A stretch of DNA of 30,160 bases from a virus (IMGVR_UViG_3300042893_000605:1-30160), one strand, 5' to 3'; counted from the first letter of the stretch, positions 12,082 through 30,160 are shown. Translations and numbers: made by a program. Notes: generated by a model not told the origin, from the sequence alone.

Positions 12082-12948
12082 CTAAAATACGCTACTGATA
12101 CTACCGCCTCTATTAGGCATGGAAAATGTTGGAGTTGGGATTTCTGGTACAGGTTCTGTATTTTTAAATCTATGTTCTATTTTGTCAGCATCAAGTTCTT
12201 TATTTTTTACCCAATATACTGAACTGTTATCAATAGTAATATACTCGCTGTCGATGCCATGAAATTCTCTATAGTCAGACAATGCACGACGACAATTAGG
12301 TAATCCGTAATCGTCAACGATAACATACCCGCCCACTGATAGTCTAGGATATAAGTTTTCTAATGCTACAATAGTTGACTCATACATATCACCATCAAGT
12401 CGTAGGATAGCTAATTTTTCTACAGCAAGCGTTGGTAAGGTGTCACTGAACCAACCTTTGACAAATTTTACTTGATCAGTGAGTAAATCATATCCAGCAA
12501 AGTTTTGTTGTACTTGCTCAAGATTAACTGCTAGGAATGGTGCTGTATGATGTGTGTCACCACGATCCACTGGATATTCATGATCCTTTGGCGGTGGTAA
12601 TCCTTGGAAACTGTCGCATACATAAACATTACGATCAGTGACGCCATAAGCACGTAAGATAGCTGACATGAATATACATGCGCCTCCGCGCCATACCCCA
12701 GTTTCAATAAAGTCGCCTGGAATATTTTTGTTGATCACATCTTCAGCAAGTTCTTGGATATTTAATAATCGTTTGTTGCCAGCCATGGAATGTGCTAGTA
12801 CTGGCCAATCTTCTCCAAGTTCTCTAGCAGTTTGATTAAATGCGATTTGCTGACCTTTGCCAGAATCAAATGATGGATCTCTATAGGTTAACCCAAGTAT
12901 GGTTTTTCTTACTATGTCTAGGTACATCTGTCTTAAATTTTGTTCCAT
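12082..12948 (-). CDS. TylF/MycF-family O-methyltransferase
   Basis: The 288-residue protein carries the SAM-binding motif IETGVWRGGA (81-90), CDSFQGLPPP (111-120), the RLDGDMYES motif (183-191) and VIVDDYG (209-215). These match the macrocin O-methyltransferase family, which is metal dependent (Asp ligands) and methylates sugar hydroxyls of glycosylated products. I infer sugar O-methylation in the cluster. A clean AAGGAC site lies upstream of the ATG. It sits between the C-methyltransferase-like gene and the glycosyltransferases. The S-adenosylhomocysteine it makes could be removed by the AhcY encoded at 20180-21466. Confidence 0.88.
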   Translation of the reverse strand: MEQNLRQMYLDIVRKTILGLTYRDPSFDSGKGQQIAFNQTARELGEDWPVLAHSMAGNKRLLNIQELAEDVINKNIPGDFIETGVWRGGACIFMSAILRAYGVTDRNVYVCDSFQGLPPPKDHEYPVDRGDTHHTAPFLAVNLEQVQQNFAGYDLLTDQVKFVKGWFSDTLPTLAVEKLAILRLDGDMYESTIVALENLYPRLSVGGYVIVDDYGLPNCRRALSDYREFHGIDSEYITIDNSSVYWVKNKELDADKIEHRFKNTEPVPEIPTPTFSMPNRGGSISSVF

Positions 12949-12960
12949 GATTTGTCCTTG

Positions 12961-14172
12961 TTAATTTGTGCTAACTACAGGAAAGTATTTGATGAATACG
13001 TCACCTTCTTGATCGCGTTTAGTTTTAATTTTACTGCTAATTTCTTTAAAGAAGTTCCAAGCCAAAGGAACAAATGCTACTTTGGTATCACCTAGTGACT
13101 CTAATGCATCAATCGCTAGCACAGGAATACTCATACCTGGACTATATAAACCTTGTTTCATTGGATTATCATCAATGATCATATCTAGTTCGGTCTTACC
13201 AAAGTTTAATAGAGTGTTGCCTTTAGCTGCCGCACCATAGCCAACGAGTTTATAGCCAAGACCTCGATAATGATCAAGGGTAGAATTTAAATCACCGATG
13301 ATAGTATAACAATGATCAGCATAGGCAAGATAGGTATTCATGTCTTGCAAGCCTTGTTCACTCTCGTGATCCAATTGAAGTTGTACACTTGGTCTCGCAC
13401 CAGGTGTCTTAGCCATAACAAACAAATAACTATTACCATGTATAGGCGTTTTTTGTATATCAATAATATGTAAGCCGGCCCGTGCCGCAAGTGCGGACAT
13501 TGAGCTTGAATTAAAGAAACTTAGGTGTTCGTGATAGATAGTATCAAACTCATTGTTCTTGATCATGTCAGCTTGACTGGTTTGTATAAACAAACGGCTC
13601 TTATCATGCATGATCTCTTTACATTGTAGTAAGAAGTCCAACGGATAGTCGTTATGTGCAAATACATTTTGAGCTGTGATAATATCTAATTCTTTCATCT
13701 TATAATGATAAACATATTTTTCTTTAAAATAATCACAGACCACTTCGTGATTGGCATTACTTAATACGTGTAGGTTTTCAGCAGGGTCAATACCGTAGGT
13801 CTTTAATCCTAGAGTTTTAAATGAATTTAGTTGGCTGCCGTCATTACAGGCAATGTCTAATACTGTTTGTGGCGGCATTTCAAAATATTCTAAGGTACGT
13901 TTAGCGAACCAATCAAAGTAGTCACGAAGTGTTTGGCTCGTACCCGACACATAAAGATAGTTTTTAAATAACAAATCTGGATTTACCGCATGACTTAATT
14001 GTAAGTGTGTGCAGTCTTCGCAGATGTTTAAGCGCAATGGAAATGTTGGTTCATCTTCCTCGGCAGTTTTCTTAAAACTATTAGCGAGTGGTTGCTCGTT
14101 TAAGTCTAAGACTAGGGTAAGTCTTTCGCTGCCACAGCAAAGGCATTCATTAAGTTGTTTAGCGTCTTCCAT
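12961..14172 (-). CDS. Sugar C-methyltransferase-like protein (NovU/TylC3/EvaC type)
   Basis: A 403-residue protein with the three-part layout of this family: an N-terminal zinc site (CLCC at 10-13 and CEDC at 51-54), a central SAM domain (VLDIACNDGS at 104-113), the catalytic YHEH motif at 213-216, and a C-terminal Rossmann-like domain with GYGAAAKGN near 308. Family members methylate the carbon next to a keto group of a dTDP- or NDP-4-keto-sugar. That substrate is just what an RmlB-like dehydratase (15831-16862) would supply. Its start is set by a GAGAAG site 4 bases upstream and overlaps the SDR gene end by 14 bases. Confidence 0.88.
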   Translation of the reverse strand: MEDAKQLNECLCCGSERLTLVLDLNEQPLANSFKKTAEEDEPTFPLRLNICEDCTHLQLSHAVNPDLLFKNYLYVSGTSQTLRDYFDWFAKRTLEYFEMPPQTVLDIACNDGSQLNSFKTLGLKTYGIDPAENLHVLSNANHEVVCDYFKEKYVYHYKMKELDIITAQNVFAHNDYPLDFLLQCKEIMHDKSRLFIQTSQADMIKNNEFDTIYHEHLSFFNSSSMSALAARAGLHIIDIQKTPIHGNSYLFVMAKTPGARPSVQLQLDHESEQGLQDMNTYLAYADHCYTIIGDLNSTLDHYRGLGYKLVGYGAAAKGNTLLNFGKTELDMIIDDNPMKQGLYSPGMSIPVLAIDALESLGDTKVAFVPLAWNFFKEISSKIKTKRDQEGDVFIKYFPVVSTN

Positions 14173-15085
14173 AATCTTCTCGTTCCCAATTATAAATTAT
14201 ATATTTGTCTCTCCATTGCGGAGTTGATTGTTCGTAACTTTCTATTAAGCTATCTACTATTGTAGCAGGAGTTTCGGTAAACGTAAAGTCAAACGTTTGT
14301 TCAAACAGAGCAGTATCTATAGCAAAATCGTAGGCATTAACAGTAGCACCTCGATCATTGATATCAACACCTAGTTTAGCACTGACTGCCTGTGCTATAT
14401 TACCTACGGTTGCATTGAAACTGGCAAGATTATAAATGCCCGGTACTGGTTGCTCAATACAGCGATTTATAGCACGACATAAATCTTCTATACCCAACAT
14501 AGCACGGCTAATCTGCTTATTCATTACCTGTATACCTGTGCCCATTTGCACACTATGGTACATACTGTTAATCATAACATCAACACGTAGGTTAGGCGCC
14601 CAACCATTGACTGTACCAAAACGTAGACCAATTACTCGTTTGCCGCGTAGATTAGCAATAGTTGCCTGTTGATCTAATGCGTACTTGGTAACATCATAGT
14701 TGTTAACAGGTGTGAAGTGTGTATTAGTTTCTTTGTGACATTCACCAGGAGCACTGTTACCATAAACACTAGCACTACTAGCATAGATAACCAATTGATC
14801 ATCTAATTTTTCTAATAAGTCTGTAAAGTTAGTAACATTGTTTAACCACGGACCCGGCAGTGCACCGTTACAACTAGGAACACTACTGTGACCAGCTAAA
14901 ACTACAACTACCTCAAACTCTGCTAGTTCTTCTTTAGTAAGTTTTTGATAGTCTCTGCGGTCACTGGTTTCGTCATGATTAAACCAACAAATGTCGTTGG
15001 TTTTAACAAAATGATTTAGTCTAAGTACCTGACGTAGCCTAGATCCAATGTAACCATTGCCACCCAGAATTAGTACTTTTTTCAT
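14159..15085 (-). CDS. NAD-dependent epimerase/dehydratase-like SDR
   Basis: This 308-residue extended SDR has the dinucleotide motif GGNGYIG (8-14), an SSASVYG strand (103-109) and the catalytic YDVTK (130-134). The family acts on nucleotide sugars as epimerases, dehydratases or reductases; with the neighbouring 4,6-dehydratase and C-methyltransferase it probably works on the keto-sugar intermediate as a reductase or epimerase. I use the ATG at 15083-15085 (MKKVLILGG), which overlaps the upstream TGA (TGATG), not the TTG one codon upstream. Confidence 0.85.
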   Translation of the reverse strand: MKKVLILGGNGYIGSRLRQVLRLNHFVKTNDICWFNHDETSDRRDYQKLTKEELAEFEVVVVLAGHSSVPSCNGALPGPWLNNVTNFTDLLEKLDDQLVIYASSASVYGNSAPGECHKETNTHFTPVNNYDVTKYALDQQATIANLRGKRVIGLRFGTVNGWAPNLRVDVMINSMYHSVQMGTGIQVMNKQISRAMLGIEDLCRAINRCIEQPVPGIYNLASFNATVGNIAQAVSAKLGVDINDRGATVNAYDFAIDTALFEQTFDFTFTETPATIVDSLIESYEQSTPQWRDKYIIYNWEREDYGRR

Positions 15086-15822
15086 CAATCAATGATCATC
15101 ATGCCGTTTGGTGCGATATTACCTTGCAAGCCAACAATGTCTAATTCAACTAGTTTATCTTTGGGGATAAATTTAGCCATCGCATGCTCATTGTCGATAT
15201 ATTTGTTTTGATTGAATAATCCCACCATAGTTTCAATAATTTTGTTATACATACTGATAGTATTAGCCAATAGACTAGGAGTAAATGACCATAGACGAGT
15301 TTGTAATAAAGTATTCACTCCAGTATCAGCTGGATTGATCCAGCTTGGTTGTGCTCGCTTAAACACATACTTGTCTTTGGTAGTAGCATTATCAAATTGT
15401 TTAATATCAAACTTATCTGTGACTTGATAGCGGCCACTGAGCTTAAAAATACGATCAGCATCTTTAACTTCTTTCATCATATCTTGGTCGTTGCTAATAT
15501 AAGTCAAGGCTTTCATGATTCCTAATGCTTCCATAGCATTTTTACCAATGTCATAGTTCTGTACATTGTCATGAAAGTACTTGATGTCAGCATCATCACT
15601 GTTGTCGATGTAATAGTCAACTAGATCAATCAGTTCTTCAAACTCTGCGCTGGTATCATTTTGTACATCAACTTTACTGTTATCTACCAGAATGATAACT
15701 GTCCCCGGAATATATTTCTTAGCACTCTTAGCAGTTTCTAATGTCTGTTGGATACGTTGTGTTGGATCATATATACCATAGTTAGTATACACTGCTGAGG
15801 TTAGCAATACAATATTTTTCAT
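15085..15822 (-). CDS. Hypothetical glycan-cluster protein, WavE/glycosyltransferase-like
   Basis: The start is placed at the ATG at 15820-15822 (MKNIVLLTSAVYTNYG) because AAGGAC lies 6-7 bases upstream, immediately after the dehydratase stop; 245 residues. The stretch R-I-F-K-L-S-G-R-Y-Q-V-T-D-K-F in the middle is common in putative glycosyltransferases of the WavE-like type, and the N-terminal VYTNYG...R-x-Q-x-T-L-E-T is seen in the same set. No proven catalytic residue can be named. The stop overlaps the ATG of the SDR gene, so it is coupled to it. Probably a transferase for a sugar made nearby. Confidence 0.6.
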   Translation of the reverse strand: MKNIVLLTSAVYTNYGIYDPTQRIQQTLETAKSAKKYIPGTVIILVDNSKVDVQNDTSAEFEELIDLVDYYIDNSDDADIKYFHDNVQNYDIGKNAMEALGIMKALTYISNDQDMMKEVKDADRIFKLSGRYQVTDKFDIKQFDNATTKDKYVFKRAQPSWINPADTGVNTLLQTRLWSFTPSLLANTISMYNKIIETMVGLFNQNKYIDNEHAMAKFIPKDKLVELDIVGLQGNIAPNGMMIID

Positions 15823-15830
15823 ATTAGTCC

Positions 15831-16862
15831 TTATTCGCAACGCAACCAACGGTCGTTCTTTAATGTCCATTCAACCACTTCACCAATACGTTCTGTTAAA
15901 CTAACCTTAGGTTCCCAACCTAAACTGCGCATGTAGTCACCGCTTAGAGCATAACGTAGGTCATGTCCTGGGCGTGAGCTATGGAAGTCGACCATTTCGT
16001 ACTTCAATTCTTTTCCTTGCGCATCAGCGATAATCTGTGCTAATTGTAGATTATTGATTTCTTGTTTGCCTACTAGATTGAACTTGGGACAACGTGCATC
16101 ACCATAGTCTGCTTCTAGCTTGGTACTGTCTAATCCCAGCAAGAACATCATAGCATCTGCTACGTCTGCCGCATGGATATAAAAACGACTGCCCGGAATA
16201 GTACGGGTTGCATCACTGTGGATAGTAATAGCATCACCATCGTTTACCTTACGGATACACATAGGAATAAACTTCTCTGGGTGTTGGCGTTGACCAAATA
16301 CGTTCATGGTATGTGTGATGTAGATAGGTAACTTGTAGGTATTTTCAAATGCCACTGCTAGTTCTTCACCACCAGCTTTAGTAGCTGAATATGGATTACT
16401 AGAATTGTAACGGTCACGTTCACCGTAATTAACACCGTTGGGTGCTGGACCGAACACTTCGTCTGTTGAGAAGTAGATGAAACGTTCTAGATTTTTTAGT
16501 TTACGAGCGAACTCTAAGATATGACCTGTACCAACTACGTTGTCCCAGACAAACTCCATTGGGAATTCAATTGATCGATCAACATGGCTACCTGCGGCCA
16601 AATGTAATACATAGTTTACATCACCGATATCACGTACTACCATCGGGTTTAGTTCAGCACGCAGATCATGGAATACTATCTTCACACGCTTTTTGATTTC
16701 TACATCAAAATCTGCCATCATATCTGATAGTCGATTTAGATTACCCGAGAAGTCTAGTCTGTCTAAGCTGACTACGTTCCAATCGGTATTTCTTAAAATA
16801 TTTTCAATAACGTGGTGTGCGATAAATCCCGCACCGCCAGTCACCAAGACGGTTTTTGACAT
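15831..16862 (-). CDS. dTDP-glucose 4,6-dehydratase-like enzyme (RmlB family)
   Basis: A 343-residue SDR with TGGAGFI (8-14), the dehydratase-specific STDEVFG motif (132-138) whose Asp-Glu pair removes water, and the catalytic YSATK (158-162). Length and the SRFYIHAADVADA region fit RmlB. It would convert an NDP-hexose (probably dTDP-glucose) into the 4-keto-6-deoxy sugar, the first committed step to many deoxysugars. The C-methyltransferase and the second SDR downstream could act next. No RmlA is present, though the nucleotidyltransferase fusion at 27726-29324 or a host enzyme could supply the substrate. A GGAGAA site precedes the ATG. Confidence 0.9.
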   Translation of the reverse strand: MSKTVLVTGGAGFIAHHVIENILRNTDWNVVSLDRLDFSGNLNRLSDMMADFDVEIKKRVKIVFHDLRAELNPMVVRDIGDVNYVLHLAAGSHVDRSIEFPMEFVWDNVVGTGHILEFARKLKNLERFIYFSTDEVFGPAPNGVNYGERDRYNSSNPYSATKAGGEELAVAFENTYKLPIYITHTMNVFGQRQHPEKFIPMCIRKVNDGDAITIHSDATRTIPGSRFYIHAADVADAMMFLLGLDSTKLEADYGDARCPKFNLVGKQEINNLQLAQIIADAQGKELKYEMVDFHSSRPGHDLRYALSGDYMRSLGWEPKVSLTERIGEVVEWTLKNDRWLRCE

Positions 16863-16900
16863 TGATTTCTCCAGTTTTCGTTGAATTTACTGCTATAACG

Positions 16901-16908
16901 TATTTATT
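16901..16908 (-). promoter_or_regulatory. Probable T4-like late promoter box (variant AATAAATA)
   Basis: AATAAATA on the minus strand followed by CG, 38 bases before the RmlB-like ATG, which leaves a leader of about 30 bases with a good ribosome-binding site. One mismatch from TATAAATA. Confidence 0.45.
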
Positions 16909-16930
16909 TTAGCTAAAATCAGCGGAAAAA

Positions 16931-17104
16931 TTATGCTTCTGTTCTGTCTGCGACTGTACGAGCAACTTTAGTTTCTACGTATTCTTTGATAAACTTGATA
17001 GCTTTACGGCTAGTATCAAAAACATATTCACTGGTTTCATCTTCCTGTGTCAGGATCACTACGAATCCATTTGTTACTTTACGAATTTCAATTGAATCAA
17101 ACAT
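16931..17104 (-). CDS. Small hypothetical protein (57 aa)
   Basis: Read from the minus strand: starts MFDSIEIRKVTNGF and ends VADRTEA. It shows two or three beta strands (SIEIRKV, GFVVILTQ, EYVFDTS) followed by a helix (RKAIKFIKEYVETKVA), a compact alpha/beta fold. No family recognised. It has its own promoter (17139-17167) with a short leader and is followed by the RmlB-like gene 68 bases later. Confidence 0.75.
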   Translation of the reverse strand: MFDSIEIRKVTNGFVVILTQEDETSEYVFDTSRKAIKFIKEYVETKVARTVADRTEA

Positions 17105-17138
17105 GTTTTACTCCATAATTATAGATTATTACCCTATA

Positions 17139-17167
17139 AGTATAACAGATTTAAATTATAATGTCAA
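17139..17167 (-). promoter_or_regulatory. Sigma70-type promoter
   Basis: TTGACA (17162-17167), 17-base spacer, TATACT (17139-17144), minus strand. It overlaps the end of the gap behind the radical SAM gene and would drive the gene at 17104. Confidence 0.75.
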
Positions 17168-17168
17168 C

Positions 17169-19319
17169 CTAACAGCTTAATTTTTCTAACATTTGAATTA
17201 TCTTATTAAGATATAATTGGTTATCTGAATCGTATAGGGTTGGAACAGCGATCGCCGTTATCATATTTCCATCATAAGTAGAATTCATGTCAGATCGTTG
17301 AGCATAGTCTAAGAAAAAAGGACTCTGGAAAACCAGTTGCATACTTGATCCATTGATCCAAAATCCCGGTTTAGCGACTATTGATACTCCATTTTCTATA
17401 TAAATTAATTCAGTGTAGTAAAAATTTGGGTCCTCTAATAGAGATATTCCATTGATTACGAATTTTTTAATTAATACAAACGTATCTTTTAAAATTTCAC
17501 CCGATGCTGACACTATTGTATCCTTGTTTGATTTTCCATAAAATTGAATTGAAATATTATTTTTAGTATCAGTATTAGGAACTACCGTATACCTATAAGA
17601 TTGGTGATCTATTACAGCATCATCAAATAATATTTGATCATTAAATTTGATTTGGATTTTAGGATCTTGATTCACAACTGATGATTCAAATTCAAATTCA
17701 ATAATAATTTCTTTTTCAGGATTTCTGTCTAAGATGGTCTTCAAGAAATTTTCATAATCGAAATAAGATGATTGTGCTAGATTGTTAATCATCTTACCAT
17801 TGATTTTAGAACTATAAAACTTTTCAGCTTGATCATGTGATCGTTCTATCACACTGTATATATAAGGTATTACACTTTCAACTATTGGGATTTTTAAATC
17901 ATTACAAAGCCTAGATATTAATAATATTCTAAAATATCTTTCTTTAAATGTCAGTGTTGGATTGTCTTTAGTCCACCATATGGTTTCTGATTCTGTCTCG
18001 ATATTGTTTTGATTTCTATTTACGTCAGCAGGAGTATGTACCAAAACTTCTCCTGTCCCTCCCAGATTAAGTCCAACCACAGTGCCATTACGAGCGTAAG
18101 GTACTAAACTGTAAATAAAGTCACAGGTTTTTAAAAAATCTTCCCATTGTTCTGCCCAATGGCCAATGATCAATAGTCCTAGAACTTTCATATTGTGTTT
18201 GTTAAATTGATCTATTTCATATTTGTAGGCATTAGTATTAGTCTTTTTATTCATTGCGATCAACACAGAATCACTACCACTTTCAAATCCAGTGGATAAT
18301 GAAACACAGCCTGATTCTGAAATTATTTTATAATACTTCTCTGGCATTTCGCCTACAGGCCTGCATATATAACTACCATTCCATGTAATACGTTTATCAG
18401 GATTTTTTTTATTATGTTCTGCTAGTTTAGTTACCCATTCCATAAAACTTGATAAACTACCATTTACCAGTGAATCAGTAAAATTAAAGTCCCTGATACC
18501 ATACTTATCTGCCAGATATAACATTTCATCAACAATATTACCACCAACACGAAATCTGAATCGTCCTTGGACCGCTTCAACATCACAGAAATCACATTTT
18601 CTCACACAACCTTTACTACCAATGATTGGTATTTGTGGGATATTTCTATTTAATTGTCCGGGATAACGTGTTAGGTCATAGTCATCAAAATTTGCGAATG
18701 CTAAGTTTGTGTCTTTATAATTTACTACATATTTTTTATCAGATACATTTTCTTTAACTGTTTGATTGGTGCTCAGAAAATCATTGAGGATTTCTTCGCC
18801 GTCCCCCAATAATACATATTCTGCCAGTTTACGTTTTTGTAGTAATTTACCATATAATAGCATCGTTTCTAATTTGGTCAAATTAGCCACATCCTTAATT
18901 ACAGATGTTGGTTCTGTTCCGGCACCGGCGCCGCCTAGCACAATTTTTTTATCTTTTGATAATTCTTTGATTTTAGTTAACAATAGGTAGGTAAAATAAT
19001 GTCCAAAATAAGAAAAAATACTAATGCCTATATATCTACTAGGTATGTTAATTAATGCTCTGGCACTATCATCAATGAATTTATTAATAAAATTTATATC
19101 ATTTAATGTATAAACATTTGAATTTGATGATAAAAAATAAGTTTGTATATAATCAAAATATTTTCTATTATAGTCACAGGTTCGATATAATTCCATCCCA
19201 AGATCAATGGTCTTAACCTTAAAGCCCTCGGATTCGGCAGTACCTTTTAGCACAGCTGGCGCTAACGGAGGAATAGCAATATGCGTATATGGAACATGGA
19301 CTATTATAATATCATACAT
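17169..19319 (-). CDS. B12-type radical SAM protein with extra C-terminal beta-sandwich-like module
   Basis: At 716 residues, the N-terminal part looks like a cobalamin-binding domain (VHVPYTHIAIPPLAP start and LGGAGAGTEPT near 128). A radical SAM domain follows, with CxxxCxxC at Cys238, Cys242 and Cys245 holding the 4Fe-4S cluster. The GFESGSD motif near 340 is also typical. Residues about 535-660 form an unusual beta-rich region (F-N-D-Q-I-L-F-D-D..., Y-G-K-S-N-K-D-T-I-V) that resembles beta-sandwich modules I associate with marine phage proteins. Known relatives carry out methylation or ring rearrangement on unactivated carbons. The gene is AT-rich, with no good ribosome-binding site. Confidence 0.85.
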   Translation of the reverse strand: MYDIIIVHVPYTHIAIPPLAPAVLKGTAESEGFKVKTIDLGMELYRTCDYNRKYFDYIQTYFLSSNSNVYTLNDINFINKFIDDSARALINIPSRYIGISIFSYFGHYFTYLLLTKIKELSKDKKIVLGGAGAGTEPTSVIKDVANLTKLETMLLYGKLLQKRKLAEYVLLGDGEEILNDFLSTNQTVKENVSDKKYVVNYKDTNLAFANFDDYDLTRYPGQLNRNIPQIPIIGSKGCVRKCDFCDVEAVQGRFRFRVGGNIVDEMLYLADKYGIRDFNFTDSLVNGSLSSFMEWVTKLAEHNKKNPDKRITWNGSYICRPVGEMPEKYYKIISESGCVSLSTGFESGSDSVLIAMNKKTNTNAYKYEIDQFNKHNMKVLGLLIIGHWAEQWEDFLKTCDFIYSLVPYARNGTVVGLNLGGTGEVLVHTPADVNRNQNNIETESETIWWTKDNPTLTFKERYFRILLISRLCNDLKIPIVESVIPYIYSVIERSHDQAEKFYSSKINGKMINNLAQSSYFDYENFLKTILDRNPEKEIIIEFEFESSVVNQDPKIQIKFNDQILFDDAVIDHQSYRYTVVPNTDTKNNISIQFYGKSNKDTIVSASGEILKDTFVLIKKFVINGISLLEDPNFYYTELIYIENGVSIVAKPGFWINGSSMQLVFQSPFFLDYAQRSDMNSTYDGNMITAIAVPTLYDSDNQLYLNKIIQMLEKLSC

Positions 19320-20179: not shown

Positions 20180-21466
20180 TTAATATCGATAACTATCAGG
20201 TTTATAAGGGCCATCAACCGCGACGCCAATATACGTGGCTTGATCAGCGGTCAGTGCTGTTAGTTCTGCACCAATCTTGGCCAAATGTAATTGAGCAACC
20301 TTCTCATCTAAATGTTTTGGCAATAGATATAAATGTCCAATTTGATAATCTTCAGTGTTGTTAAACATTTCAATCTGTGCTAGAACTTGGTTAGTAAATG
20401 AATTACTCATTACATAACTAGGGTGGCCTGTGGCACAACCTAGATTAACTAATCGACCTTTAGCCAAGATGATGATCTTATTACCGTTTGGTAAAGTTAC
20501 ATGATCAACTTGAGGTTTGATTTCGTCCCAGACTAGATCTTGTATACCAGCGATGTCGATCTCACTGTCAAAGTGACCAATGTTACAGACGATGCTGTTA
20601 TGCTTCATCTTGATCATGTGTTCACGAGTGATAACATCGATATTACCTGTGGCTGTTACAAAGATGTCTGCCTTGTCTGCGGCATAGTCCATGGTAACTA
20701 CTCGATAGCCTTCCATGGCCGCCTGTAAGGCGCAGATTGGATCGATCTCAGTTACCCATACCTGTGCCGACAGTGCTCGTAATGCCGCGGCTGATCCTTT
20801 ACCTACATCACCAAAGCCTGCTACCACAGCAACTTTGCCTGCGATCATCACGTCAGTGGCACGTTTAATACCATCTACTAGACTTTCACGGCAGCCATAT
20901 AAGTTATCAAACTTGGCTTTGGTCACTGAATCGTTTACGTTGATAGCACGTAGTTTGAATTTACCTGCGGCGATCGCTTCGTTAATCTTATGGATACCTG
21001 TGGTTGTTTCTTCTGTTACTCCACGGATTCCTTCTATTAGATGCGGATGTTTTTCATGGATATACCAGGTTAAGTCGTGCCCGTCATCAAGTAACATATT
21101 TGGCCGCCAGTCATTAGGACCACTCAGTGTGCGTTCTATACAATCCCAATATTCTTCTTCTGTTTCGCCTTTCCAGGCGAATACAGGAATACCTAGATCA
21201 GCAAGTGCGGCAGCAGCGTGATCCTGTGTTGAAAATATGTTACATGAACTCCAACGTACTTCTGCACCCAAGGCAACCAGTGTTTCAACTAATACTGCTG
21301 TCTGGATAGTCATATGTAATGATCCAGAGATACGGGCACCTTTGAGTGGTTGAGCTTCTTTAAACTCTTCCCTAACAGACATTAATCCTGGCATTTCTGT
21401 TTCAGCGATAGCTATTTCTTTATGCCCCCAGCTAGCTAAACTAATATCTTTTACTTTATAATCCAT
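20180..21466 (-). CDS. ahcY: S-adenosylhomocysteine hydrolase
   Basis: A full-length 428-residue AhcY: the N-terminal [17 protein letters not shown] block, [10 protein letters not shown], the NAD-binding [10 protein letters not shown] near residue 215, and the C-terminal K-P-D-S-Y-R-Y signature (last seven residues). It splits S-adenosylhomocysteine to adenosine and homocysteine and so removes the inhibitory product of methyltransferases. The phage encodes two clear methyltransferases and a radical SAM protein, which makes this placement logical. Its length lacks the roughly 40-residue insertion of many bacterial forms. ATG follows the acyl carrier protein stop by one base. Confidence 0.96.
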
Positions 21467-21467
21467 A

Positions 21468-21704
21468 TTATTTTTTCTCTATTTTAGTATTAATTAAATC
21501 GACTATTTTTTGTACTGTATCTGCATCTTGATATTCTTCATCTTCAATTTTGATACTAAACGCATTTTCTACGTCCATCACTATTTCTACTATATCTAGT
21601 GAATCTGTTCCTAAGTCATCAACAATTTTATTTTCAAGAGAAATAGAATTTGGTTCTATGCCCAGTTGATTGGCTATAATTTTTTTAAGTTTTTCTGCTG
21701 TCAT
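21468..21704 (-). CDS. Acyl carrier protein
   Basis: A 78-residue protein with the phosphopantetheine attachment motif D-L-G-T-D-S-L (Ser35 modified in the holo form), in the right place before helix 2, followed by [13 protein letters not shown]. It is a standard ACP fold. I set the start at the ATG at 21702-21704 because AAGGAC lies 6 bases upstream; a TTG two codons earlier would have no spacing. No ketosynthase or acyl-ACP synthetase is in the window, so it must be loaded by host enzymes. With a NeuD-like acyltransferase and sugar genes nearby, it may donate an acyl group to a sugar. It is translationally coupled to ahcY. Confidence 0.93.
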
Positions 21705-21717
21705 GGACAAGTCCTTT

Positions 21718-25176: not shown

Positions 25177-26283
25177 TTAAGTTATTATTTTAGCACTTAG
25201 TAAATGTTTTGTAAACCATTCTTTAGGGTGACATTCATAATTAAACACGTGTCCATGTGCTTTCATTGGTATCCTAGTCATAGCCAAAAATGCGGCATCA
25301 CGTGCTTGACTTAATAGATCAACATCTTGATCAGGATTAACATCCAATTCGGATATATAATATTTCCAAAATAGAGGAATATCTTCTTCCGCCCAACGTG
25401 CTTCTACACCATTCGGGTCCATACTGTACAATCTTTCTGCCGCTGAATATAAGTTAGTCCAACCGTCCTTGCGTTCTGGATAACCAACACGCACTCGCAT
25501 AGAGGATTCTAAAAATCCAGGAGGCACAAATAATGGAGGTGCTATAGTACCTAATAGATGACCTACATGACTATAACCATCATAGTGTCGTATTAACTCT
25601 TTTGTGGGAGAATATACTGTGCTAGGTATTTTTAGTCCGTATTGCCAACCAAGCGAGTCTGAACGGTATATATTATCCTCGCCGCAATCTGTATCAAACC
25701 AATACTTCTTAAATCTACCTGCTTTCATCATTAGTAGACTATCAACAGTGTCCCAATGGAACTTGATAAAATTACCGTCTAGTGTTAATTCACCTTTATG
25801 TAACAAGCTCATTCGCATCTGTTCAGGCCAATGACTATAATACATCACCGCTAAAGGATCAGGATCGGCATTTAATATGTCAATACTTGCACGAATCATA
25901 TCTAGATTACTGTCTATAAAGATATGATCATCGTTACCTTCATACCAAATTAACTTATTATCATTGGTAAATTGGCTATCACAAAGGTCTCTCCAAGTCT
26001 GTGTGCGATCTATTCTATACCAATGGATTTCTAACTTATCTGCAGGGAATATACTCAACATATATTCATATAATTCAGCTTGACGAGGGGAAAATTCAGC
26101 TAGGTCGATATAGAACACGAACTTGTCTACTACCGGAGTCATTACTGCACGACTGGCAAGACAGTATTTAAATATATCAAAACGATTGTTTACAGGAAAC
26201 CAGCTAGCACGATCGTATACTGTACCAGCATACGGGTGTGTCATTTTCACATCAGTGATCTTTACATTGAATAAAACGATCAT
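25177..26283 (-). CDS. Glycosyltransferase-like protein (368 aa)
   Basis: A 368-residue protein with VVDKFVFYIDLAEFS, LEIHWYRIDR, then NDDHIFIDSNLDMI near residue 117-130. The DDH-type acidic stretch after a hydrophobic strand, and the Rossmann-like first half, fit a GT-A-like glycosyltransferase. The YSPTKELIRHYDGYSHVG segment is a conserved pattern I have seen in phage and polysaccharide loci but cannot name. It lacks a signal peptide or membrane helix. The ATG overlaps the aldolase-like gene's TGA (ATGA). Confidence 0.6.
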   Translation of the reverse strand: MIVLFNVKITDVKMTHPYAGTVYDRASWFPVNNRFDIFKYCLASRAVMTPVVDKFVFYIDLAEFSPRQAELYEYMLSIFPADKLEIHWYRIDRTQTWRDLCDSQFTNDNKLIWYEGNDDHIFIDSNLDMIRASIDILNADPDPLAVMYYSHWPEQMRMSLLHKGELTLDGNFIKFHWDTVDSLLMMKAGRFKKYWFDTDCGEDNIYRSDSLGWQYGLKIPSTVYSPTKELIRHYDGYSHVGHLLGTIAPPLFVPPGFLESSMRVRVGYPERKDGWTNLYSAAERLYSMDPNGVEARWAEEDIPLFWKYYISELDVNPDQDVDLLSQARDAAFLAMTRIPMKAHGHVFNYECHPKEWFTKHLLSAKIIT

Positions 26284-27266
26284 TTTAGATTATTTGTGTA
26301 TAGATCTAAAATATATTCAATTTCGCTAGTGATAGTAGCTTTCCAATCTGTTCTTTGATTAAGTACATTTATCAAGGCTTGATATTTGCTTGATGAGAAA
26401 CAATAGTGCCCAGCAACATTGATCTGATGTTCGCGATCGTTACTGTCAGTCCATTTACGCCAACGACCGCTATCAACTACTTCGCTAGCAAAGTCTGCCC
26501 ATTGGCCTTGTGCATCTGGATATTGCTCAACTAGTCTACGTAATAGTTTAGTCTGCACTACACCTAGTTGTGGGGCTATGTTAAGAGCATGTACACCTAC
26601 AGCACTGCGTAGGCTAATTTCTTCAGCTGACAAATAATCAGCATTATGTTCTTTCATCTTAACGCCGTTGGTATTAGCCACTTCGACTAGTTCTTTAACT
26701 GTAGCTGTTTCAAATCCGCCTGCTTGATGATCTTCATGACATAGACTACCTGTTTGTGCTACAACAAATTGTATATTAGGAATATCTTTAGCAAAGGCCA
26801 CATCTGCTTTATATTTGATCGCCCCTGCGGCTACTCCTACATTTTCTTCTGTGCCAAATTCAAATTGTATATTAGGATTAAGATCTAAGCAGAATTTAAA
26901 TAGTTCTTCAGCGATACCATATGTATCATCAACACGGCTAGTATCAATATGGATTAGATTAAATCCCTGTTCGATATCGTAGGCAATGGTCTTCTTGGTT
27001 GCTTCTACAGCATCACGTATACTTAAATTCTTTTCTGCATCTAGGAAGTATGGACCACAATGGTCACGACACATCCAGATATAATCTGTAGGTAATGTAG
27101 ATAACTGCTCACGTATCTGCGGGGTAGTCATCACATAACCACTTTCAGCATCTACTTGATTACGACTTGCGATAATCATCAATGGTTTTTTATTATTGTG
27201 ACTGTAATTGCACAATATCTCAATGACCTCACGGCTCATTGGGCCAAACCCTAGTCTAAAATCCAT
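26280..27266 (-). CDS. GatZ/KbaZ-like class II aldolase family protein
   Basis: I use the ATG at 27264-27266 because GGGG lies seven bases upstream; the frame also allows a TTG two codons earlier. The 328-residue product has a TIM-barrel layout with RLGFGPMS, MCRDHCGPYF, NLIHIDTSR, FEFGTEENVG, QTGSLCHEDHQAGGF and KEHNADYL at the ends of strands, which match the tagatose-1,6-bisphosphate aldolase subunit GatZ/KbaZ and related sugar-phosphate aldolases. It would join or split a ketose phosphate. In this position it may build the carbon skeleton of the sugar that the three upstream-transcribed genes activate. It is shorter than GatZ (about 420). Confidence 0.75.
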   Translation of the reverse strand: MDFRLGFGPMSREVIEILCNYSHNNKKPLMIIASRNQVDAESGYVMTTPQIREQLSTLPTDYIWMCRDHCGPYFLDAEKNLSIRDAVEATKKTIAYDIEQGFNLIHIDTSRVDDTYGIAEELFKFCLDLNPNIQFEFGTEENVGVAAGAIKYKADVAFAKDIPNIQFVVAQTGSLCHEDHQAGGFETATVKELVEVANTNGVKMKEHNADYLSAEEISLRSAVGVHALNIAPQLGVVQTKLLRRLVEQYPDAQGQWADFASEVVDSGRWRKWTDSNDREHQINVAGHYCFSSSKYQALINVLNQRTDWKATITSEIEYILDLYTNNLK

Positions 27267-27726
27267 GTTCAATCCCCATTAAATACATAATATGCACGCA
27301 AGCATCCATGACTGCGCCTTTACCGCCTTCACGGTCTGTAACAACATCTGCGTTTTCAATTGCTGTTCTCCAAGCCTGTGCTGGAGCAAAACTTAATCCC
27401 ACATGTGGAAATATTTTTGCATCGTAAGGTCCGTCACCCATGAAGATAGTTTCCTTTGGATCTCCTTTACTCAAGACCCAGTTAAGTCTATCTTTTTCTT
27501 TAACCATGGTACAAGGAAATTTCATATGATCAATAATACGACTTTCTGTAATAGGCCAACCCATTTCATCGGCTGATACAAATTCTATTTCTAAGTGTTT
27601 GCGTAATAATTTAAGTCCATCGTGATCATAGTTACCAAATGCCTTGAATGGTTTACCATCTACACCCCAATAGAGCATGCCGTCATTTAGTACACCATCT
27701 ACATCCATGATAAAACGTTTATACAT
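27256..27726 (-). CDS. KdsC-like HAD-superfamily phosphatase
   Basis: At 156 residues, it has the HAD nucleophile motif DVDG (Asp8, Asp10), motif II in FVSADE, and motif IV MGDGPYDAK (Asp98, Asp102). The small, capless form with GVLNDG after motif I resembles KDO-8-phosphate phosphatase (KdsC) and related sugar-phosphate phosphatases. It would remove phosphate from a sugar phosphate, probably at a non-anomeric position. It overlaps the aldolase-like gene and is coupled to the kinase/nucleotidyltransferase gene (TAATG), so it is very likely one step of the same pathway. Confidence 0.85.
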   Translation of the reverse strand: MYKRFIMDVDGVLNDGMLYWGVDGKPFKAFGNYDHDGLKLLRKHLEIEFVSADEMGWPITESRIIDHMKFPCTMVKEKDRLNWVLSKGDPKETIFMGDGPYDAKIFPHVGLSFAPAQAWRTAIENADVVTDREGGKGAVMDACVHIMYLMGIEHGF

Positions 27727-29324
27727 TACCCAAGCACCTTGTTAAAGTGTAGTTGTGCTAGTGCTATCAAGAACTTGTCAAACGGTGCTTCGTGTAATGG
27801 ACTCATGTTCAAGTAGATGATTGGCACCAATGTCTTAACTTTCTTCCAATCTAGTCCTTGTTTCGCCACCCAACGCTGTAAGATGTCTTCATATACCTGT
27901 ACATCTTTTACGCTGGGAACTTCTATCGTAGCATAGTCATTGCGTTCTGCATACATGTAACGCTCGTGTTTAATGTCTTTATAGCTCAAGTGTAAGCCAC
28001 CTAGCATTTTTGCCAGATCATAATATTGATCACCATAAAGTGCGCCACCAAAGTCAGTTCGCCAATCGATAGCAGTGAACTTATCTTTATAATGTTCTCT
28101 ATGTATTTCGGTATCAGTTAGAGGGCCAAGATATTGTCCATGTTGATAAATGGTATTATCAAAGTGTAGATCACCGTGGATAAACTTCCATGATGTTTCT
28201 GTGGTTAACCAAGTAAAGTCAATCTTGCTTAGGTATGTGTCGATGGTATCTACTTCAACGCCATTGACCACACAAGGTTCACTCCAGGTAGCATACTTGG
28301 CACGGAACATTTCTACACGTTCTATGGTTTTATCATGATAGAATTTATTACAGATAGTAAGATGATCGATATCAGCATCGTTCTCAGATGGAGCAGGTTT
28401 CCATAATGTCGTTTCACACCAAGCCAACATACTTTCAAATACCTCAGGTGAGTATTGATTATAAACGATATCACCCTTGGCAAAGTCATGTATTAGGAAG
28501 TTGCCTGATTGCTCAACATTGTTAGGCATGGCTTCAGGATTACACTTTGCTCGTTTTACACGCATCTCTGCCTGCTTGGGATTAGTCCAGAACTTGACGA
28601 TCTTTTTATTATCGTTGTAGAATAGTTCATCTGGCTTAGGAAAACTTACATCAGTAAACTCATTTGATAGCTCTTCCCATTTCTCATAAGTGCCGAAGTC
28701 TTTCCAACCACGCACTGTGTGTGCTTTTAATTTAAGTCCATCAAATCCTTCTGGAGTTTCTTTGGCCTTGCGATTGATTAAATTACGTAGATAGTTATCA
28801 TCTTTAGCATACATCAATCCAATGAACGCATCAACTGCGGTCTTGCTAGGTAGTTTATTCTTTACACTGATGATATTGTCTGCTTCACGTTCAATCCAAC
28901 AGTAGTCTTGTGCGATAGCACTGTCGACTGGATGTACTCCGATCCAATTGTGATCTAGTTTATCTCTGTATTCAAAGTCAAATAATGTATCGCAGGCCAA
29001 CCACATGAACCCACCATGTAGATATTTGGCACAGGCCTGTATGCTGGTAGCAGGTCCTGTATCACCTTCTGCGTAGTTGGGAATGTCTACAAATACCACG
29101 TCTTTATCACTGTGGACTACACTGACATAATCTTTAATATATTGGCCCATATGACCACAGGCCACAACAAAGCGTGTTCCTTGATCAAACTTTTCCATGA
29201 TGTGACTGATTAGTGGTTTGTTGTCATATGGAATAAGTGCTTTAGGTATCATACGACCAAATGGTCCCATACGACGACCATAGCCTGCCGCAAGGATTAA
29301 TACTGTGAGTTTAGTTGTGTTCAT
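27726..29324 (-). CDS. Bifunctional sugar-phosphate nucleotidyltransferase-kinase fusion
   Basis: A 532-residue two-domain protein. Residues 1-225 are a nucleotidyltransferase: LILAAGYGRRMGPFG (9-23) with the P-loop-like GxGxRM and later PKALIP (27-32). Residues about 240-532 are an APH/choline-kinase-like phosphotransferase with the catalytic HGDLHFDN (383-390) and the metal-binding IDWR (419-422). It would first phosphorylate a sugar (kinase) and then join it to a nucleotide, as the separate HddA/HddC enzymes do for heptoses, or as LicA and LicC do for choline. The sugar and nucleotide are not identifiable from sequence. A fusion in this order is unusual. Confidence 0.85.
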   Translation of the reverse strand: MNTTKLTVLILAAGYGRRMGPFGRMIPKALIPYDNKPLISHIMEKFDQGTRFVVACGHMGQYIKDYVSVVHSDKDVVFVDIPNYAEGDTGPATSIQACAKYLHGGFMWLACDTLFDFEYRDKLDHNWIGVHPVDSAIAQDYCWIEREADNIISVKNKLPSKTAVDAFIGLMYAKDDNYLRNLINRKAKETPEGFDGLKLKAHTVRGWKDFGTYEKWEELSNEFTDVSFPKPDELFYNDNKKIVKFWTNPKQAEMRVKRAKCNPEAMPNNVEQSGNFLIHDFAKGDIVYNQYSPEVFESMLAWCETTLWKPAPSENDADIDHLTICNKFYHDKTIERVEMFRAKYATWSEPCVVNGVEVDTIDTYLSKIDFTWLTTETSWKFIHGDLHFDNTIYQHGQYLGPLTDTEIHREHYKDKFTAIDWRTDFGGALYGDQYYDLAKMLGGLHLSYKDIKHERYMYAERNDYATIEVPSVKDVQVYEDILQRWVAKQGLDWKKVKTLVPIIYLNMSPLHEAPFDKFLIALAQLHFNKVLG

Positions 29325-29784
29325 GTTCTGCGGCTATCCTTCCATGTCCTCTGTTAGCAGAGTCTTCAAGACGTATAACGTCATCTAATTGAGTAGTGCT
29401 AGCTTCTGTGTAATGTAGATCATCATGTGCGATCATACGGTGGATAGTACGAGGTGGGGTATGGAACACTGCACCTGGTGCTAGTTCTTCAGTGATTAAC
29501 TCGCTTTTAATCTGTGCTATTTCTTCTGCTGTATACCCACCTGCTAAGAAACGCTCACAGTCAAACGGCGTTGGATGGTATGCTAGTGCACCATGCCCAA
29601 TATGTAAATGGATACTTTCTGATTTAAATTGGTGAACTTGTAGGCTAGTAACAAAGCCTGCTCGTAAGATTAATTCTTTGAGTGCAAACGGATAAACATC
29701 ACTACCTGGCATTAACCAAGTTTCGGTTCCCCATGGTTTATGTACCACGTGGCAATCTTCAATTCTTAGGAATTCTACAGTCAT
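29311..29784 (-). CDS. Cupin-fold protein, phosphomannose-isomerase (type II)-like
   Basis: The 157-residue protein has a V-H-K-P-W-G-T-E-T-W opening and a QVHQFKSESIHLHIGHG...RTIHRMI pair of cupin motifs, with His residues that would bind a metal. This is the layout of the ManC/type II phosphomannose isomerase C-terminal cupin. It may isomerise a sugar phosphate or bind a sugar nucleotide. It is the first gene of the operon behind the promoter at 29805-29833, with AGAGG before the ATG, and overlaps the next gene by 14 bases. Isomerase function is inferred from the family only. Confidence 0.8.
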   Translation of the reverse strand: MTVEFLRIEDCHVVHKPWGTETWLMPGSDVYPFALKELILRAGFVTSLQVHQFKSESIHLHIGHGALAYHPTPFDCERFLAGGYTAEEIAQIKSELITEELAPGAVFHTPPRTIHRMIAHDDLHYTEASTTQLDDVIRLEDSANRGHGRIAAEHEHN

Positions 29785-29804: not shown

Positions 29805-29833
29805 ATTATATACTACTATTTAACTTTTTACAA
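29805..29833 (-). promoter_or_regulatory. Sigma70-like promoter of the sugar-activation operon
   Basis: TTGTAA (29828-29833), 17-base spacer, TATAAT (29805-29810), minus strand, between tRNA-Glu and the cupin gene. Confidence 0.6.
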
Positions 29834-29852: not shown

Positions 29853-29928
29853 TGGTACTCCCAACGAGATTCGAACTCGTGTTACCTGCGTGAAAGGCGG
29901 GTGTCCTAGGCCTCTAGACGATAGGAGC
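29853..29928 (-). tRNA. tRNA-Glu (anticodon TTC)
   Basis: A complete 76-base minus-strand tRNA with encoded CCA. Anticodon loop CTTTCAC gives anticodon TTC. The GTCTAGAGGCCTAGGACACC and TTCGAAT parts match bacterial tRNA-Glu closely, and the acceptor stem (GCTCCTA with TGGGAGT) pairs fully, with one G-T at the end. Confidence 0.95.
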
Positions 29929-30111: not shown

Positions 30112-30130
30112 GTATTATTCCTATTAAAAA

Positions 30131-30160
30131 TGGCGGAAACGAAGAGATTCGAACTCTTGA
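30131..30160 (-). tRNA. Partial tRNA, probably tRNA-Ser (3' end only)
   Basis: The last 30 bases of the window hold a minus-strand tRNA 3' end: T-arm AAGAGTTCGAATCTCTT, acceptor strand CGTTTCC, discriminator G and CCA. The G discriminator and GTTTCCGCCA end resemble bacterial tRNA-Ser. The anticodon lies outside the window. Confidence 0.7.

Follow-up and report, generated by a model that had tools for sequence, protein, structure and literature searches.

A five-gene phage block built around a nucleotidyltransferase-kinase fusion: a candidate route to nucleotide-activated rare aldoses shared by phages, bacteria and archaea

The window analysed here, a viral stretch of 30,160 nucleotides (IMGVR_UViG_3300042893_000605:1-30160), carries five overlapping open reading frames on its minus strand. 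We propose that the enzymes of this block make a rare aldose in nucleotide-activated form in the cytosol, starting with the C4 epimerisation of a ketose 6-phosphate, and we give this proposal an even chance of being correct. Four of the genes, for a cupin, a nucleotidyltransferase (NTase) fused to a kinase-like domain, a HAD phosphatase and a GatZ-like protein, had been reported earlier in a reading of the sequence alone, and all four were found where this sequence-only reading had placed them. The fifth gene is added by the present analysis. When sought in other genomes, the four-gene block was found to recur in distant bacteria, archaea and phages. All four proteins look like working enzymes, judging from catalytic positions that are nearly invariant over 98-128 aligned sequences.

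Consecutive genes overlap by 14 nt (cupin and fusion), 1 nt (fusion and HAD), 17 nt (HAD and GatZ-like) and 4 nt (GatZ-like and fifth gene), the third of these values shrinking to 11 nt should an internal ATG, instead of TTG, be the start of the GatZ-like gene (Table 1). A search of PHROGs placed the fusion only in families of unknown function and returned no match for the GatZ-like protein or the HAD protein.

Table 1. Features of the window, in nucleotides from its first letter
Feature	Position	Strand	Remarks
PMI-type cupin, predicted aldose-ketose (phosphate) isomerase	29311-29784	-	157 aa
Nucleotidyltransferase-APH kinase fusion	27726-29324	-	532 aa
NTase domain (fusion residues ~1-229)	28637-29324	-	PF12804; profile and fold matches
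APH/choline-kinase-like domain (fusion residues ~230-532), predicted anomeric sugar kinase	27726-28636	-	PF01636 in relatives
KdsC/YrbI-like HAD phosphatase	27256-27726	-	156 aa
GatZ/KbaZ-like Zn enzyme, predicted ketose-phosphate C4-epimerase (or aldolase)	26280-27272	-	330 aa
Fifth overlapping gene	25177-26283	-	368 aa; no family match
Candidate promoter TTGTAA-17-TATAAT	29805-29833	-	Upstream of cupin gene; 10/12 sigma-70-like match
tRNA-Glu (TTC) gene	29853-29928	-	Just upstream of operon
Apparent 3' end of a second tRNA	~30130-30160	-	Runs off window end
C-methyltransferase-like gene, possible tailoring enzyme	12961-14172	-	Family F3 model, 2.6e-29
Surface-sugar type genes	12082-19319	-	Large phage glycan island
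S-adenosylhomocysteine hydrolase gene	20180-21466	-	Near block in most close relatives
Acyl-carrier-protein-like gene	21468-21710	-	Adjoins S-adenosylhomocysteine hydrolase gene

The fusion proposed from the sequence is borne out by domain searches, in which the N-terminal half matched NTP_transf_3 (PF12804; MobA-like NTP transferase) with an E value of 2.7e-13, and the motif HGDLHFDN lies further along the same chain at residues 383-390. No Pfam family matched the kinase half of the window protein itself, and PF01636 (APH) was matched by 26 of 44 relatives of the fusion. Profile searches gave weak matches of this half to the APH enzymes 3uzr and 3ham, while a Foldseek search with the whole fusion was filled by matches to the NTase domain and yielded no structural neighbour for the kinase half. 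In an alignment of 128 sequences, the ATP-binding lysine K244, the triad H383-G384-D385, N390 and the metal-binding D420 show 98-100% conservation, so that the catalytic residues expected of a kinase are kept.

For the NTase half, the residues G14, G16, R18, K28 and D112 are conserved, and profile comparison identified G1P thymidylyltransferase (3hl3, E 3e-16) and LicC (1jyk, E 1.5e-13), with a weak reach to ribitol-5-P cytidylyltransferases. The AlphaFold2 model of this domain (pLDDT 91.6) resembles MurU (4y7t; TM 0.78, by target length), although its score with the MurU model is below the cut-off (34.2 bits against 250). The fold fits both MurU and RmlA types, and base specificity is not readable from it.

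No Pfam match was obtained for the cupin of the window. PF01050 (MannoseP_isomer, mannose-6-P isomerase) is matched by six of the seven cupin homologues scanned, one of which also matches Lyx_isomer, and the metal ligands Q49, H51, E56 and H115 are 99-100% conserved in 115 aligned sequences. The labels "cysteine dioxygenase" (PHROG) and "adenylate kinase" (NCBIfam) were judged uninformative, as the relatives of this protein are PMI-type cupins. The HAD protein is of the KdsC type (TIGR01670, E 2e-17), with 63.4 bits falling below the cut-off of 106.95. It also matches KdsC in the PDB (E 2e-13), and its catalytic aspartates D8, D10, D98 and D102 are invariant in the alignment.

The GatZ and KbaZ proteins had long been regarded as chaperones of an aldolase but were shown to be C4-epimerases that turn Fru6P into Tag6P, with D87, H88, E171 and H257 of E. 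coli GatZ serving as the catalytic Asp and Zn ligands (PMC11907403). These four residues align with D70, H71, E142 and H209 of the GatZ-like protein, and among its relatives the D and H columns are invariant and the E142 column holds E or D. PF08013 (GatZ/KbaZ-like) is matched above its cut-off (37.7 bits against 26.7, E 1.3e-9) over residues 15-113 only, a stretch of 99 residues, whereas the TIGR02810 GatZ/KbaZ equivalog is not reached (35.4 bits against 568.8). Structure prediction gave an AlphaFold2 model with a pLDDT of 95.3. The best structural matches of this model were 3txv and 2fiq (TM 0.82-0.86), to which a sequence profile pointed as well, two GatZ/KbaZ family structures deposited as putative tagatose 6-phosphate kinases. 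Because the second-shell residues of GatZ are not kept (C20 is replaced by G10, E44 by I34 and K279 by N231), the sequences place this protein in a sister group of GatZ and not in GatZ itself. These replacements, and a score far below the equivalog cut-off, suggest that its substrate and even its reaction may differ from those of GatZ.

Relatives of the block are widespread. The window encodes a phage-type helicase whose nearest relatives belong to jumbo phages, Atu_ph07 and PA5oct among them. Gene content and order are shared with ten close virus contigs, all five genes being present if the contig extends far enough. When virus contigs were scanned with profiles, 362 GatZ-like proteins and 269 relatives of the fusion were obtained, and among the loci fetched, 67 distinct phage GatZ genes have the cupin and the fusion at the same locus. 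A genome scan found 227 GatZ relatives, and about half of the best 80 of these are encoded in clusters of this type; the groups concerned are Woesearchaeota, Pacearchaeota, Parcubacteria-type CPR, Omnitrophota, Planctomycetota, Pelagibacteraceae, Prochlorococcus, Magnetococcales, Halieaceae and others. Most of the remainder of these 80 come from Firmicutes, are about 422 aa long and stand outside any such cluster, and a search of two such Firmicutes genomes found no fusion. When about 1,900 genomes were searched with the fusion only, it was present in roughly 1-3% of the genomes per group and often adjoined the cupin, HAD and GatZ genes. GatZ is found in 37 of the 49 distinct cellular fusion loci; since fusion-only searches also gave loci with GatZ, the link between the two is not just an artefact of querying with GatZ. 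The HAD gene is absent from some sets, including one phage group.

The phage-borne set of the sequence-only reading recurs in 67 distinct phage clusters, but it is not specific to phages, being found in 37 cellular clusters as well, and an origin confined to phages was rejected for the same reason. Its scattered distribution would be in keeping with that of surface-glycan genes passed between genomes. Four records labelled "Listeria phage" (OR846732.1, OR846727.1, OR848100.1 and OR848179.1) were not accepted as phage relatives. They encode a 422-aa bacterial-type GatZ and look like host chromosome contigs, and in the one record read, a PTS operon stands beside GatZ as in Firmicutes chromosomes. 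Gene sets can also be arranged differently: locus L133 (4513-9602) has two divergent half-sets on opposite strands, one with a distant GatZ, a 119-aa HAD and a fifth-gene relative, the other with cupin, fusion and an AroE-like gene, and L012 has a small HAD, cupin, fusion and GatZ.

Four cellular loci (L262, L291, L292 and L293) hold the fusion and HAD genes without cupin and GatZ, and have in their place a 6-phospho-3-hexuloisomerase-like SIS protein and a ribulose-phosphate-3-epimerase-like protein. Where such proteins were scanned, they exceeded the NCBIfam cut-offs for the SIS/RPE types, with 192.8 and 194.9 against 160, and 213.8 to 218.8 against 212.6. This pair occurs in none of the GatZ loci (P about 0.002). 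The simplest reading of these arrangements is that a SIS isomerase replaces the cupin isomerase and a ketose epimerase replaces GatZ. Other fusions are found as well, of NTase with HAD in L167 (6349-7518) and L184 (5835-7025) and of NTase with SIS in L291 (10766-12025), which speaks for a link between the isomerase, phosphatase and NTase activities.

Many relatives of the block include a dehydrogenase. An AroE-like gene occurs in 39 of the 67 phage clusters, which take three forms: HAD without AroE (22 clusters with the fifth gene and 4 without it), AroE with HAD (13 clusters plus variants), and AroE with a SnoaL-like protein and no HAD (16 clusters). Among cellular loci, AroE-like genes are present in 10 and SDR genes in 8, and the two never occur together (P about 0.06), which is only suggestive of mutual exclusion. 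The N-domain of shikimate dehydrogenase is present in the AroE-like protein. In true AroE, SxSP forms the carboxylate-binding motif; because this position appears to be replaced by GNFG or GKTG, the substrate of the AroE-like protein probably has no carboxylate there. The SnoaL-like protein (105-130 aa) is encoded next to the cluster in one group of phages (L061, L070, L079 and others) and also in loci of Prochlorococcus, Pelagibacteraceae and Magnetococcales (L191, L192, L239, L264-L268 and L270).

No AroE or SDR homologue was found in the window. In a tree of GatZ proteins, 51 phage sequences form one clade (SH-aLRT 99), and while each of the two main phage subclades includes members with the AroE-like gene, the 11-row clade that holds the window has none, an absence most simply explained as loss. 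GatZ, cupin and HAD occur without a dehydrogenase in eight cellular clusters whose flanks are complete, and dehydrogenase-free sets of HAD, GatZ, GT, cupin and fusion are found repeatedly, in Prochlorococcus, Magnetococcales and other groups. The recurrence of these cellular sets suggests that a core without dehydrogenase may be functional. In the suggestion that the window holds a complete pathway, the isomerase, phosphatase, kinase and NTase logic is supported, as it is kept as a block in very distant genomes, but completeness is less certain, as many relatives add an AroE-like or SDR gene that is absent here.

In the route that we propose, the GatZ-like Zn enzyme would invert C4 of a ketose 6-phosphate by retro-aldol/aldol chemistry, in the way that E. 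coli GatZ and KbaZ act on fructose-6-P and tagatose-6-P. Next, the PMI-type cupin would turn the resulting ketose phosphate into an aldose phosphate, the KdsC-like HAD protein would remove the phosphate from the aldose-6-P, the APH-type domain would phosphorylate the anomeric carbon to give an aldose-1-P, and the NTase domain would form the NDP-aldose. Finally, a transferase, perhaps the product of the fifth gene, would place this sugar on a phage or host surface glycan. Starting from fructose-6-P, the product would be NDP-talose or NDP-galactose, and since UDP-galactose is already obtainable through GalE, talose would be the more sensible of the two. What the analysis shows directly is the genes with their conservation, catalytic residues and folds, the linkage of the block and the exchange of modules; the direction of the route, its substrate, the nucleotide, the order of phosphatase and kinase and the use of the product are all inferred. 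The SIS/RPE variant would by the same logic lead to sugars of the allose or altrose type. It is thus possible, at slightly worse than even chances in our judgement, that bacteria, archaea and phages share a widespread pathway to rare NDP-aldoses through epimerisation of ketose 6-phosphates, with two exchangeable front modules (GatZ-like protein plus PMI cupin, or ribulose-P-3-epimerase-like protein plus SIS isomerase) feeding one fusion. GatZ-like proteins would then serve in biosynthesis, as might AroE-like (shikimate-dehydrogenase-like) orphans.

Points against the C4-epimerase scheme are that the AroE-like or SDR enzyme of many relatives has no use in it and that the HAD is missing from one phage group. 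In a rival version, which follows the sequence-only reading, the GatZ-like protein would act as a genuine class II aldolase on DHAP, or on a C2/C3 donor, and an aldehyde. The new ketose phosphate, possibly supplied or modified by the dehydrogenase, would then be isomerised, dephosphorylated, phosphorylated at C1 and activated. The class II aldolase fold and Zn site would allow aldol addition, the second shell of GatZ is not conserved, and AroE-like or SDR genes often accompany GatZ and were not found with the SIS/RPE module. Yet class II aldolases themselves reach a TM of only about 0.5-0.57 with the model, far from the values of the GatZ/KbaZ structures, the metal ligands correspond in the alignment to those of GatZ, Glu included, and not to three His, and exchange for a ribulose-P-3-epimerase-type protein favours an epimerase. 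We therefore regard the aldolase as unlikely. The GatZ/KbaZ Zn site and the exchange in four genomes make it more likely, by analogy, that the GatZ-like protein epimerises a ketose phosphate than that it builds one by aldol addition, and the aldol step with which the sequence-only reading had opened the pathway gives way to epimerisation followed by isomerisation.

The dehydrogenases bear on two further explanations. The phage set might be an incomplete copy, reduced by loss of the AroE-like step, whose role is only to strengthen or redirect a similar host pathway, which would be in keeping with the distribution of AroE-like genes in the phage subclades, with the lack of AroE and SDR in the window and with the retention of other subsets by other phages; the dehydrogenase-free cellular sets speak against it, and we consider it decidedly improbable. 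Alternatively, the product could be an activated alditol or another non-aldose (a CDP-alditol, or a CDP-aminoalcohol as with LicCA), made by reduction of a ketose to a polyol by the dehydrogenase, phosphorylation of this polyol by the APH domain and transfer by an NTase acting as cytidylyltransferase. Consistent with this are the proximity of the NTase to LicC and, more weakly, to ribitol-5-P cytidylyltransferases, the membership of choline kinases in the APH superfamily and the frequency of SDR or AroE-like genes in relatives. However, such a route needs neither a PMI-type isomerase nor a sugar phosphatase, the lineage of the window keeps cupin, HAD and fusion without any such dehydrogenase, and sugar-1-P NTases are equally close to the NTase domain, so that this outcome seems about as improbable to us.

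Among known systems, the closest in logic is the MupP-AmgK-MurU salvage of UDP-MurNAc in Pseudomonas, where MurNAc is released by a HAD phosphatase, receives a phosphate at its anomeric carbon from AmgK and is then uridylylated by MurU (PMC5371407). The block would likewise employ a HAD sugar-6-phosphatase, an anomeric kinase and then an NTase with a MurU-like fold, but it has NTase and kinase in one protein, a HAD of the KdsC type, and a GatZ-like enzyme and PMI cupin in addition. By analogy, this fits better than the synthesis of NDP-heptose on which the sequence-only reading had modelled the pathway. The NDP-heptose (GmhA/HddA/GmhB/HddC) and Kdo (KdsD/KdsC/KdsB) routes do share an isomerase, HAD and NTase logic with the block, and Kdo synthesis a KdsC-type HAD; however, the block has a cupin isomerase instead of SIS, an APH instead of a GHMP or ribokinase-type kinase and the extra GatZ-like enzyme, and its NTase scores far below the cut-off of the HddC model (21.4 bits against 300). 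Compared with GatZ and KbaZ of E. coli, the GatZ-like protein has the same fold and the same Zn/catalytic D, H, E and H, but it differs in length (330 aa instead of 420), second shell and sub-equivalog score, and its gene neighbours are those of a surface-sugar cluster and not of a sugar-use operon. In LicCA of Treponema, a choline kinase and a cytidylyltransferase are fused, and the window protein likewise has an NTase followed by an APH-type kinase in one chain. We know of no sugar isomerase, GatZ or HAD partners of LicCA, whereas a fusion of the window type usually has them nearby.

Our searches of open papers found no description of this gene combination, nothing relevant on NDP-talose and no described pathway that the set matches. 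If the proposed route is right, proteins now annotated piecemeal as tagatose-bisphosphate aldolase-like, KdsC-like, MobA-like transferase and cupin would form a single pathway to an unusual surface sugar, in an enzyme set that is both compact and widespread, spanning many uncultured bacteria, archaea and their phages. The GatZ family would gain a biosynthetic role and the two-domain fusion would be explained. Phages would then bring their own supply line for a rare sugar, which bears on receptor modification and virion glycosylation.

The fifth gene stands behind GatZ in most loci of the phage lineage of the window. Neither Pfam nor the PDB gave a match for it, also when it was searched as a profile, and a transferase using the pathway product is our guess. 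At the other end of the block, the single promoter expected by the sequence-only reading has a candidate directly after the tRNA-Glu gene, but sigma-70-like sites are no commoner in the window than in shuffled sequences (20 against 17.7, sd 4.7), which leaves position alone in its favour. The T4 late promoter motif is also at chance level.

The pathway sugar may be methylated, because C-methyltransferase-family genes recur in cellular loci and have a homologue in the window. Genes of this family, F3, lie beside or inside the operons in 20 of 39 cellular loci, and one member has Methyltransf_14. The glycan island of the window includes genes for a radical-SAM-like protein, two NAD-epimerase family proteins, the C-methyltransferase and a TylF-like methyltransferase. 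With many methyltransferases nearby, the phage S-adenosylhomocysteine hydrolase may relieve build-up of S-adenosylhomocysteine. The acyl-carrier-protein-like gene next to it also has a homologue in L004.
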